A stretch of 64,000 bases of DNA, from contig JAJVHV010000001.1 in NCBI GenBank assembly GCA_022072445.1, positions 62,001 to 126,000 on the forward strand, in the 5' to 3' direction. This DNA comes from Phycisphaerae bacterium. Lineage in GTDB: Bacteria > Planctomycetota > Phycisphaerae > UBA1845 > Fen-1342. The position numbers and the translations under genes are program-made. The stretch's first letter is position 1, and each line of letters begins with the position of its first letter. Positions 55,262 through 59,281 of the stretch are shown here, in pieces. The notes under the pieces are model-generated. The model did not search any database and was not told the origin of the DNA. It saw nothing but the letters and a program-made list of their open reading frames with translations.

Positions 55262-58200
55262 TCACGCGCCGATCTCGCCCAGATGCTCCCGGATGGCCGC
55301 CAGCTTCGCACAAAGCTCCGCCGCCCGCTGCCGCTCCTTCTCGACCACGGCCGCGGGGGCCTTGTCCACGAACGTCGCATCGGCCAGCTTCGCTTCCACG
55401 CGCTGAATCGCCGCCGAGACTTCGCCCAGGTCCTTCTCGAGCCGGCGGCGCTCGATCTCGGGGTCGGCCAGGCCCGCCAGCGGCACGTACACCTCCATCC
55501 CCGACAGCACCTTGCTCGCCGCCGGCCGCGGTTTGGCCACCTCCGGCCCGATCTCGATCTGCTCGCACGTTCCCAGCCGCCGGATCATCGCGCCGTTCCG
55601 CCGCAGAATTTCCGCCCGCTCCCCCGCGGCGCGGATGGCCGCGTGCGGCAGATTGCGGATCGACGGCTGTTTGTCGGCGGCGCGCATCGTGTTCACCTGC
55701 GTGCGGATGTCGCGCAACGCGCGGATCACCGGCTGAAGCACCTCGCTCACCTCGCGCTCGCACGCCTCGTCGATCAGCTCGGGGCGAACGCGCGGCCAGG
55801 CTGTGACGATCAGCGGCGCATCGGCGCTGCGGTCACCCACGCCAGAGCCGCGCGTGGTGCCAGAGCCGTGACCGTCATTCGCGCCCGAGCCGCGCTCCGG
55901 CCGATCCGAGCCGCGACCGTAAGGGAGCGGGTTCTTAGCTCCGCCCGCACGGCGCTCGATCTCCGCGCGATCGGAACTCAGCCTTTCCGCACTCGGCGCC
56001 TCCGCGCTGCGCACGGAAACCGCTCCCTCACGGTCGCGGCTCTGGCAGCGCTCGATCCATTCGGCATGCCCCGGCACGGCCTCGCCGACCTTTTGCCACA
56101 GCGCCTCAGTAATGAACGGCATGAACGGGTGCATCAGGCACAGCGTGCTGTCGAGAACGTGCAACAGCACGGTTTTCACGTCGTTGGCCTGCGCCGCACC
56201 ATTCCCTTCGTGGCTTCGTGGCTTCGTGGCTTCGTCGCTCCCTCCGTCGCTCCGTCGCTTCGTCGCGCCGTCGTCGCCTTCGCGCCTCCGTGCCTCCGTG
56301 CCTGCGTGCCCCGCAGTTAACCGCACCTTGGCCTCTTCGATGTACCAATCGCAGAAATCGCCCCAGAAGAACGCGTAGATCGCGTCGGCGGCCCGCTGAA
56401 ATTGATATTGATCGAGCGCGTCGGTCACCGAGCGGATGCAGCGCTGCAAGCGCGACAGGATCCAACGGTCGAACAGATCCCTCGGCCCTTTGGTCCCTCG
56501 GCTCCTGGGCCCCTCAACCCCTTGGCCCCTCGGCCCCTCGGCCCCGTCGTCCCTCCGTCGCTCTCCAATCTCCACGTCGCGCACATTCGGCAGCACAAAC
56601 CCCGTCGCCGCCTGCCACAGCTTGTTGCAGAAGTTGCGGCCCAGCTCGAACTTGTCGCTGCCGTTCACCGTGCGGCCGTCGGGCAGCTTCACCGGCTTGA
56701 CCGGCATGCGGATGTCCTGCGTCTCGGTCGCCATCTGCGCCAGCACGAAGCGCAGCGCGTCGGTGCCGTACAGCTCGATCAGGTCGAGCGGGTCGACGCC
56801 GTTGCCCAGGCTCTTGGACATCGTCCGCCCCTGGCCGTCCTGGATAATCGGGTGGATGTAGACGTGGCGGAACGGCCGCTGCCCGGTCAGGTACTTCGAG
56901 CACATCACCATCCGCGCCACCCAGAGCGTGATAATGCCGCGTGCGGTGGTCAACACGTCGGTGGGGAAGAAGTAGTCGAAGTCGGCGGGGGTAGGCCGGA
57001 TTGAACCGGCATCGTCAGCGTCGCCAGAGTCAGCGCCGCTCGGGTTTCTGCCAGAGCCGTTTCTGCCAGAGCCGCGACCGTCAGGGAGCGCGGGAGGCGC
57101 GTTGTCTCCGGCCCGCGCACGTGATGGATCCGAGCCGCGACCGTGAGGGAGCGGGTTCCTAGCGCCACCCGCGCCGCGCTCAATCTCCGCGCGATTCGAA
57201 CTCGGCCTTTCAGCACTCGGCGCCTCCGCGCTGGGCATGGAAACCGCTCCCTCACGGTCGCGGCTCGGATCCGTCGGGTCGCGGCTCGGACTGTGCGGCG
57301 CCTCCGCGCTGGGCCCGGAAACCGCTCCCTCACGGTCGCGGCTCGGATCCGTCGGGTCGCGGCTCAGATCATGCGGCCAGCCAAACGTGCTCAGCGGCCA
57401 GAGCGACGAGCTGAACCACGTGTCGAGCACGTCGGGGTCCTGCACGAAGCCGACGGCTTCGAGACGCCGCGCAAGCGGACTATTCGGAGTGCGAATACAG
57501 ATTAGCGTTTCGACATCGAACACGTCCCCGACGTGCTCGCTAAGTTCCAGCGAAGTTCGGGATGACTCTTGATCGCGACTCACGACGACCTCGGCGCGAT
57601 GGTCGCGCTCCAGTTCGCGGAGCAGCGCCTCGGCTGCTTGCGACTCACTTTCCCAGCCCCCCCATTCGCGACGCCACACCGGGATCCGATGCCCCCACCA
57701 GAGCTGCCGGCTGATGCACCAGTCGCGCTTCTCGCCCAGCCAGTCCAGATACGTCGACGCGTAACGCGCCGGAAAAAACTGCACCTCGCCGCCGCGCACC
57801 GCCTCGATCGCGAGCTGCGCCAGCCCCGGCGCGCCGCGCAGCCCCTCCACCCGTGCCGCGTGCTCCGGCTCCAGATCGCCCGTCTTCACGAACCACTGCT
57901 CGCTGCGGAGCGGCTCGATCGGCGTCTTGCTGCGGTCGGAGTGGCCCACGTCGGTCACGTAGTCTTCGACTTTCTCCAGCAACCCGAGCGCCTCCAAGTC
58001 GGCCACCACCTGCTTGCGCGCGTCCTCCTTCTTCATCCCCGCGTAATCGCGCCCTACTCCCCGTTCCTTGTCTCCTGCGCCGTGCGCCACGCCAGTCGCA
58101 TCCTCGTGCGCCCCGCGCCCCGCGCCCTGCGCCCTGCCGTTCTCGTTGATCTTCCCGTCCGGCGTCAGCAGGTCGATGATGGCAAACTCATCGGCGTGTC

Positions 58201-59161
58201 CCTGATGCCGCTGCCAGCAGGCGTAGTCGTTCGGATCGTGCCCCGGCGTGATCTTCACGCAGCCCGTTCCGAATTCCTTGTTCACCAGCAGCCCGTCGGC
58301 GACGATCGGGATCGGACGGTTCATCAGCGGCAGAATGCAGCGCTTGCCGATCAGGTGCTTGTAGCGCTCATCGTCCGGATGCACCGCCACCGCCGTGTCC
58401 GCCAGCATCGTCTCCGGCCGCGTGGTGGCTACGACGAGGTAGTCAACACCCGCGCGCCCTTCGTCGCTTCGTCGCTCCGTCGCTCCGTCGCTCCGTGGCT
58501 CCGTGGCTCCGTCGCTCTGTTCAATCGGATACCGAATATGCCACAAGTGCCCCTTGACCGTCTCATGCACGATCTCGTCGTCGGCCACCGCCGTCTGCAG
58601 CGCCGCGTCCCAGTTCACCATCCGCAGCCCGCGGTAGATCAGCCCGTCGCGAAACATGCGGAAGAACAGCTCGTACACCGCTCGCGCGCACACCTCGTCC
58701 AGCGTGAAACGCGACCGCTCCCAGTCGCACGAGAAGCCCATCTTGCGGAGCTGCGCGATGATCCGCGCGTTGTACTCCTCCTTCCACTCCCATATCTTCC
58801 GCACCAACCCCTCGCGGCCCAGCTCATGCCGCGTCAGCTTCTGCTCCTGCTTCAGCCGCTTCTCGACCACCGCCTGCGTCGCGATCCCGGCGTGATCGGT
58901 CCCCGGCATCCACTCCGCGTCGTAGCCCTGCATCCGTCGCGCCCGAATCAGAATGTCCTGGCAGGTGTTGTTCAGCGCGTGACCCAGGTGCAGCGCGCCG
59001 GTGACGTTCGGCGGAGGAATGACGATCGTAAACGGCTGGCGGGCCGTATCGGGCTCGGCGTGAAAATAGCCGCCGCGCTCCCACAGCGCGTAGATGCCCG
59101 GCTCGATTGCTCGGGGGTCATACGTGCCGCCGCCGGCGGGCGGCGCGGCGTTGCTGCTCAT
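55262..59161 (-). CDS. valS: Valyl-tRNA synthetase with six in-frame repeat-derived insertions
   Basis: A class I synthetase charging tRNA-Val. The HIGH motif appears as ALHLGHALNNT (about residue 55), the KMSKS motif as RTMSKSLGNG (about 778), and the C-terminal tRNA-binding coiled coil as RRRLEKDLGEVSAAIQRVEA. At 1299 residues it exceeds the usual 880-950. The excess lies in six blocks that split conserved sequence: about residues 215-236, 341-370, 596-722, 865-895, 947-989 and 1038-1111. All are rich in Arg, Gly, Ser, Asp and Glu and derive from octamer or heptamer arrays and palindromic elements. The frame is open throughout. GGAG lies eight bases before the ATG at 59161. It is the only valS in view. 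Confidence 0.95.
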   Translation of the reverse strand: MSSNAAPPAGGGTYDPRAIEPGIYALWERGGYFHAEPDTARQPFTIVIPPPNVTGALHLGHALNNTCQDILIRARRMQGYDAEWMPGTDHAGIATQAVVEKRLKQEQKLTRHELGREGLVRKIWEWKEEYNARIIAQLRKMGFSCDWERSRFTLDEVCARAVYELFFRMFRDGLIYRGLRMVNWDAALQTAVADDEIVHETVKGHLWHIRYPIEQSDGATEPRSDGATERRSDEGRAGVDYLVVATTRPETMLADTAVAVHPDDERYKHLIGKRCILPLMNRPIPIVADGLLVNKEFGTGCVKITPGHDPNDYACWQRHQGHADEFAIIDLLTPDGKINENGRAQGAGRGAHEDATGVAHGAGDKERGVGRDYAGMKKEDARKQVVADLEALGLLEKVEDYVTDVGHSDRSKTPIEPLRSEQWFVKTGDLEPEHAARVEGLRGAPGLAQLAIEAVRGGEVQFFPARYASTYLDWLGEKRDWCISRQLWWGHRIPVWRREWGGWESESQAAEALLRELERDHRAEVVVSRDQESSRTSLELSEHVGDVFDVETLICIRTPNSPLARRLEAVGFVQDPDVLDTWFSSSLWPLSTFGWPHDLSRDPTDPSRDREGAVSGPSAEAPHSPSRDPTDPSRDREGAVSMPSAEAPSAERPSSNRAEIERGAGGARNPLPHGRGSDPSRARAGDNAPPALPDGRGSGRNGSGRNPSGADSGDADDAGSIRPTPADFDYFFPTDVLTTARGIITLWVARMVMCSKYLTGQRPFRHVYIHPIIQDGQGRTMSKSLGNGVDPLDLIELYGTDALRFVLAQMATETQDIRMPVKPVKLPDGRTVNGSDKFELGRNFCNKLWQAATGFVLPNVRDVEIGERRRDDGAEGPRGQGVEGPRSRGTKGPRDLFDRWILSRLQRCIRSVTDALDQYQFQRAADAIYAFFWGDFCDWYIEEAKVRLTAGHAGTEARRREGDDGATKRRSDGGSDEATKPRSHEGNGAAQANDVKTVLLHVLDSTLCLMHPFMPFITEALWQKVGEAVPGHAEWIERCQSRDREGAVSVRSAEAPSAERLSSDRAEIERRAGGAKNPLPYGRGSDRPERGSGANDGHGSGTTRGSGVGDRSADAPLIVTAWPRVRPELIDEACEREVSEVLQPVIRALRDIRTQVNTMRAADKQPSIRNLPHAAIRAAGERAEILRRNGAMIRRLGTCEQIEIGPEVAKPRPAASKVLSGMEVYVPLAGLADPEIERRRLEKDLGEVSAAIQRVEAKLADATFVDKAPAAVVEKERQRAAELCAKLAAIREHLGEIGA
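55829..56048. repeat. valS insertion with 135-bp palindromic element, copy 2
   Basis: The 135-bp element spans 55908-56042: a 28-base arm (55908-55935), 79 bases of centre, and the inverted arm (56015-56042), three mismatches between arms. The insertion is extended at 55829-55907 by degenerate CAGAGCCG-type repeats. In the coding frame the arms read SRDREGAVS and NPLPYGRGSD. Confidence 0.85.
56195..56325. repeat. Period-8 array in valS
   Basis: CTTCGTGG is repeated three times and then drifts (CTTCGTCG, CTCCCTCC, GTCGCTCC, GTCGCTTC, GTCGCGCC, TCCGTGCC) while keeping its eight-base step. It encodes GTEARRREG ... DEATKPRSHEG. The same octamer is found in the kinase gene. Confidence 0.8.
56470..56570. 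repeat. Second period-8 array in valS
   Basis: About ten octamers built on CCCCTCGG (for example CCCTTTGG, TCCCTCGG, CCCCTTGG, CCCCTCGG twice, CCCCGTCG, TCCCTCCG). The encoded stretch DDGAEGPRGQGVEGPRSRG separates VRDVEIGER from DLFDRWILSRL, a core boundary of the synthetase. Confidence 0.8.
57000..57378. repeat. valS insertion with 135-bp palindromic element, copy 1, and 78-bp tandem duplication
   Basis: The complete element spans 57132-57266 (arms 57132-57159 and 57239-57266, 27 of 28 bases paired; 79-base centre). The right-arm segment is then duplicated at 57317-57344 as part of a 78-base (26-codon) tandem unit beginning at 57239 and 57317. A degenerate third arm lies at 57070-57091. The whole block encodes about 125 extra residues between the segments STFGWPHDL and DYFFPTDVLTT. 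Confidence 0.88.
58055..58142. repeat. Period-7 array in valS
   Basis: Read on the minus strand, the segment runs in seven-base steps: GGCAGGG, CGCAGGG, CGCGGGG, CGCGGGG, then degenerating through GGAGACA and AGGAACG. It encodes about 30 residues with GAGRGAHEDATGVAHGAG inside the editing region. Confidence 0.7.
58456..58520. repeat. Third period-8 array in valS
   Basis: Octamers TCGTCGCT (twice), CCGTCGCT (twice), CCGTGGCT (twice), CCGTCGCT. The encoded SDGATEPRSDGATERRSDEG interrupts the synthetase between RYPIEQ and VDYLVVATTRPET. Confidence 0.8.
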
Positions 59162-59281
59162 GCGATCCACTCCCGCTGCTGGACTGCGACTGCCTGGGCG
59201 ATCCAAAGCGGATGAGTGTATCCGATCGGGCCGGCACCCGCGAACCGCAGGTGTCCCCCTGACCGCCCGTGCGGCAGGTCA

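Follow-up and report, generated by a model that had tools for sequence, protein, structure and literature searches.

An in-frame, REP-like palindromic doublet in valS of a Phycisphaerae bacterium and its probable relation to transposase domains nested in essential enzymes

RESULTS

Two copies of a palindromic element within valS

The window, by which we mean the whole stretch of 64,000 nucleotides of Phycisphaerae DNA analyzed here, carries a valine--tRNA ligase gene (valS) that houses two copies of a 135-bp element (Table 1). The window ValS, inserts included, scores above the curated cutoffs of TIGR00422 and NF004349, and its ORF was aligned to ValRS of T. thermophilus (1gax). The initial annotation had described the second copy as matching the first in length, orientation, and frame, and this holds: each copy is 135 bp long and is encoded on the minus strand, in register with the valS ORF, and the distance of 1.2 kb that had been given between them is 1,224 bp from start to start. 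Copy 2 reads SRDREGAVSVRSAEAPSAERLSSDRAEIERRAGGAKNPLPYGRGS and forms 45 codons open in the valS frame, with an 89-bp center between two inverted 23-nt arms. An ungapped comparison reproduced the 13 differences in 135 positions, without indels, that had been counted by hand; they fall at element positions 14, 28, 33, 36, 42, 44, 51, 65, 66, 73, 81, 103, and 107. The right arm had been said to have no mismatches, and over its 23 nt it is indeed identical in the two copies. Across the 23 nt of the left arm, the copies differ only at the N of the loop, rather than at the two positions first reported, a number that fits a slightly longer definition of the arm.

Neither copy is an isolated unit. Copy 1 belongs to a cluster of REP arms in which 78 bp are duplicated in tandem and in frame, and a degraded half-arm lies downstream of copy 2, at 55863, inside the insert at the copy-2 site. 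With up to three mismatches allowed, the window contains six arm matches, versus none in 100 dinucleotide shuffles, and all six are inside valS; even at up to four mismatches, no arm was detected outside valS in the 64 kb. We saw no target duplication at the valS inserts, and none is expected for an enzyme of the IS200/IS605 type.

Table 1. Positions in the window of valS and of the palindromic features inside it
Feature	Position	Strand	Remarks
valS, valine--tRNA ligase ORF, 1314 aa	55262..59206	-	houses both copies; TTG at 59206, later ATG at 59161
Copy 2, REP doublet	55908..56042	-	
Copy 2 arm, 5' end of coding strand	56020..56042	-	foot CAGA; encodes SRDREGA
Copy 2 arm, 3' end of coding strand, inverted	55908..55930	+	encodes PLPYGRG
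Lineage-specific insert at copy-2 site, aa 1056-1127	55826..56041	-	approximate extent, from ortholog alignment
Copy 1, full-length REP doublet	57132..57266	-	
Insert at copy-1 site, aa 614-741	56984..57367	-	approximate extent; flanked by GWPHD and DFDYFFPTD motif
Extra REP arm	57322..57344	-	part of 78-bp in-frame tandem duplication 57218-57365
Extra REP arm, one mismatch	57069..57091	+	

Elsewhere in valS we also found 8-bp in-frame tandem repeats at 56206-56310, 56479-56545, and 58462-58517 (CTTCGTGG, CCCTCGGC, and CGTCGCTC). The sequence CTTCGTGGCTTCGTGG, from these repeats, occurs at 117 places in the genome, versus 1 for its reversed control.

The arm is a dispersed, REP-like hairpin

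The arm reads GAGCCGCGACCGTNAGGGAGCGG, and each valS copy is an inverted pair of such REP-like hairpins. Inverted pairs are not limited to these two copies. Across the genome, 376 places match the arm with up to two mismatches, versus none for the reversed control. The 23 nt fold as an imperfect hairpin, CCGC-GA-CC-GTNA-GG-GA-GCGG. When 54 distinct cores were compared with the outer stem fixed, 39 paired at both inner positions (shuffle mean, 19.6; maximum, 28), and the main inner-stem types, CC/GG and GC/GC, are related by replacement of both bases of a pair. The sequence upstream of the arm, compared over 142 different copies, gives the consensus ATC(C/A)GAG, in which GA is invariant and the C at -2 is present in 89%. 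The proposal that the arms are the constrained part of a mobile palindromic element is supported by this dispersed hairpin repeat, its conserved 5' foot, and its pair-preserving variation.

The spread of the arm is patchy: of 392 genomes from the phylum, 12 contain an exact match, and with up to one mismatch the arm is found in 26 of 41 relatives, at 0 to about 300 copies per genome. Intragenic arms occur in valS, alaS, and cysS, and arrays lie elsewhere in ambiguous ORFs. Regular arrays at four loci (L107, L103, L108, and L111; G000 C17, C24, C12, and C7, respectively) have a spacing of mostly about 130 to 270 bp. In the L103 array, the arm alternates with a variant arm, GAGCCGCGCGCGTNAGCAAGCGG.

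Empty and filled sites in relatives

Orthologous valS genes had been proposed as the comparison that would define the insertions. In all 14 relatives that align at the copy-2 position, the element is absent and an ordinary short loop takes its place; this alignment draws on distant genera. At the copy-1 position, the valS genes of relatives have varied inserts, some of them of low complexity, or none, and the T. thermophilus enzyme has a loop of about two residues. In G414, a genome of the same family, the copy-1 position of valS is occupied by a complete REP-associated tyrosine transposase (RAYT).

Transposase domains bordered by the arms

A genome search for Y1 transposases identified the single alaS of the window's own genome, an ORF of 1686 aa with two in-frame Y1/RAYT domains, each flanked by arms. 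No such arms were found near the other Y1 transposases of this genome (C1, C8, and C18). Correctly oriented arms surround RAYTs at eight loci of this genome and its relatives; the closest relatives of the alaS RAYT mostly have them on both sides, unlike the less similar ones. By this association and the foot motif only, a RAYT is the likely mover of the valS element, the movement itself being inferred.

The HUH motif NHVH is present and is kept in nested RAYTs with one degraded exception. The Y----Q signature is present as well (YVLEGQ and YVDEHQ), with Y and Q invariant. The RAYTs score 33.9 and 30.1 bits, below the curated cutoff of the NCBIfam model REP_Tyr_transpos (80 bits); the host enzymes score above their curated cutoffs. 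A model of the RAYT domain (mean pLDDT, 79) had as its best PDB match 4er8, a REP-associated tyrosine transposase in complex with a REP hairpin. An AlphaFold model of one nested AlaRS is poor as a whole (pTM, 0.38) but places a partly confident RAYT core between two low-confidence linkers that correspond to the REP-encoded stretches. Pfam scans of the nested proteins detected no Hint/intein splicing domain.

We surveyed the 80 best loci, taking one genome per species from a set that was mostly metagenome assembled. At 30 of them the RAYT was nested in an identified large ORF (alaS, 11; valS, 10; DUF1156, 7; Type ISP restriction enzyme, 2). Flanking arms accompanied 28 of the 30 nested RAYTs versus 14 of the 50 others (p about 6e-9, with related loci counted as independent), and an ATG within 25 codons upstream of the RAYT core was found in 4 of 30 versus 36 of 50 (p about 5e-7, kinship ignored). 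In the tree, the DUF1156 loci require at least three changes. A different RAYT type also occurs in frame: several genera carry it in purH, and genome G013 has it in leuS and valS.

DISCUSSION

Proposed origin of copy 2

We hold it to be probable, with good confidence, that copy 2 is a nonautonomous, REPIN-like REP doublet that was moved by a RAYT and kept the reading frame, and that autonomous arm-RAYT-arm relatives are nested in the same way; mobility is an inference. The mover of the doublet would most likely be a RAYT, an HUH tyrosine transposase similar to class 3 TnpA, which would carry it as single-stranded hairpins. Within coding DNA, the only insertions to survive would be those that keep the frame in tolerant surface loops, and copy 2 would add a probably disordered linker to ValRS. 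Autonomous arm-RAYT-arm elements persist as in-frame inner segments in alaS of the genome itself, in valS of relatives, and in some other genes. Since nested RAYTs usually have no start codon of their own, the transposase would be produced as part of the host enzyme.

We lean, if only slightly, toward a broader version of this reading, namely, that a lineage of RAYT plus REP adopted an in-frame life in essential enzymes, chiefly alaS and valS, and gave up a separate start codon, leaving the synthetase to produce the transposase as a nonspliced inner domain. That a RAYT moves these arms, that it does so in single-stranded form and cleaves its cognate single-stranded hairpin, and that transposase and host enzyme are both active in the fusion are all inferred without biochemistry. 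We observed no transposition event or polymorphism.

Local copying, domestication, and other explanations

The initial annotation had left open whether the two copies came from separate insertions or from transposition within the gene. In the genome, the full-length 135-bp core exists only as the two valS copies; the next best match, in cysS, reaches 72% over 132 bp. Because the core is found at these two places alone, copying within the gene appears more likely, on the sequence evidence, than two arrivals from elsewhere. The within-gene half of the earlier suggestion is thus the one favored, although recombination between arms, or gene conversion, could account for the spread of the core in valS in place of transposition. 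The timing of the two insertions is not shown.

The same confinement of the core to valS is compatible with a wholly local history, in which a single old REP doublet gave rise to copy 2 through recombination or gene conversion between repeats, with no transposase acting at that step. The 78-bp tandem duplication in the copy-1 cluster and the regularly spaced arm arrays elsewhere in the genome are in keeping with this idea, which we regard as a real but rather unlikely possibility. It accounts less readily for the fact that copy 2 occupies its own site, 1.2 kb from copy 1, has a clean CAGA foot, and is separated from copy 1 by conserved valS sequence; a simple tandem duplication is disfavored because 1.1 kb of conserved valS would have been skipped.

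Nested RAYTs are under purifying selection, with pairwise dN/dS values of 0.16 to 0.28 among their domains where measurable, ratios that are rough because dS exceeds 1; this selection counts in favor of the proposed origin of copy 2 as well. The 10 valS-nested loci form one clade (96/86), which is consistent with long persistence, and in alaS the RAYT distances track those of the host moderately (rho 0.42, p 0.02). These results could mean that REP segments and nested transposase domains are no longer mobile and now serve the enzyme or the cell, with regulation and genome maintenance as conceivable roles. We consider such domestication improbable, given that nested RAYTs differ in their hosts, sites, and linkers, that RAYT and host distances are uncorrelated in valS, that the copy-2 insert is restricted to one lineage, and that one nested copy has lost the HUH motif.

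Most of the genomes are metagenome assembled, which raises the prospect of an assembly or binning artifact. This is very hard to reconcile with a nested architecture that about 20 separately assembled loci share, at matching positions of alaS and valS, and with the presence of RAYT-in-purH in two single-contig genomes (G018 and G425).

The explanation that would have refuted the initial annotation, an ancient duplicated protein module of ValRS present in all relatives, has in its favor only that the copies are similar and both in frame; we reject it as scarcely credible because the copy-2 insert is missing from orthologous valS genes (14 of 14 relatives that align there). The short copy-1 loop in T. 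thermophilus, with its roughly two residues, and the dispersal of the arms across the genome count against it as well.

Relation to known systems and significance

Inteins are elements of a mobile type that persist in frame inside essential enzymes. The elements described here share that persistence; they differ in having no splicing domain, so the insert would stay in the protein.

A close parallel is the REP/REPIN system with its RAYT (TnpA_REP), including REPtrons (De Nocera 2013, PMC3733652; PMC8266576), which has in common with our elements the high-copy, short, imperfect hairpins, the inverted doublets, the conserved foot, and the repeats that flank an HUH tyrosine transposase. REPs inside genes have been described before, and tRNA synthetases of three named species are among the hosts (De Nocera et al. 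2013, PMC3733652). The foot differs, being of the CnGA type here rather than the GTAG or CGTC typical of REPs, and a second difference is that essential genes here contain the RAYT itself, in frame. Rickettsia palindromic elements (RPE; cited in PMC3733652) are likewise palindromic repeats in frame in protein-coding genes; the portion of the source available to us mentions no nested transposase for them.

By its foot and its NHVH and Y----Q motifs, the RAYT appears to belong with class 3 as defined by Quentin et al. 2018 (PMC6006769), a resemblance judged from these features alone. In the accessible part of that paper, class 3 TnpA_Y1 is placed mainly in Planctomycetes, Acidobacteria, and Proteobacteria and shares with our sequences these two motifs and high-copy flanking hairpins with a CnGA foot; nesting is not described in that part, and the survey is said there to have excluded proteins of unexpected length, regarding them as fusions or as errors of annotation. 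In-frame REPs and this class of transposase are known, and in-frame RAYTs inside essential enzymes are apparently unreported, insofar as we found no report of them in the open-access literature.

Mobile elements are expected to break genes, and here short palindromes and functional-looking transposase domains persist in frame in single-copy essential enzymes, the transposase being under selection. If the fused transposase works, a selfish element would resist loss and be steadily expressed without splicing, providing a test system for REP spread; if the proposal is true, it would amount to an intein-like hiding place in which splicing is absent. It also offers an explanation for oddly long planctomycete tRNA synthetases, which automatic surveys would drop as misannotations.

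Other in-frame domains and repeats

A Y1 domain nested at a similar position in purH was noted in several genera (L100, L150, L151, L154, L156, and L157); a further copy beside this set, in G417, has a degraded HUH motif, and its host ORF is unconfirmed. The loci with a RAYT in frame in a DUF1156 protein or a Type ISP restriction enzyme are L210, L214, L228, L236, L238, L242, L246, L209, and L213, and one of the DUF1156 hosts matches an anti-phage DUF1156 model, below its cutoff. At L102 (2361-7301; G000 C27:56360-61300), an ileS-type ORF of 1647 aa has a weak Y1 transposase match and contains long arrays encoding GSIGVPPV, apparently another repeat family.
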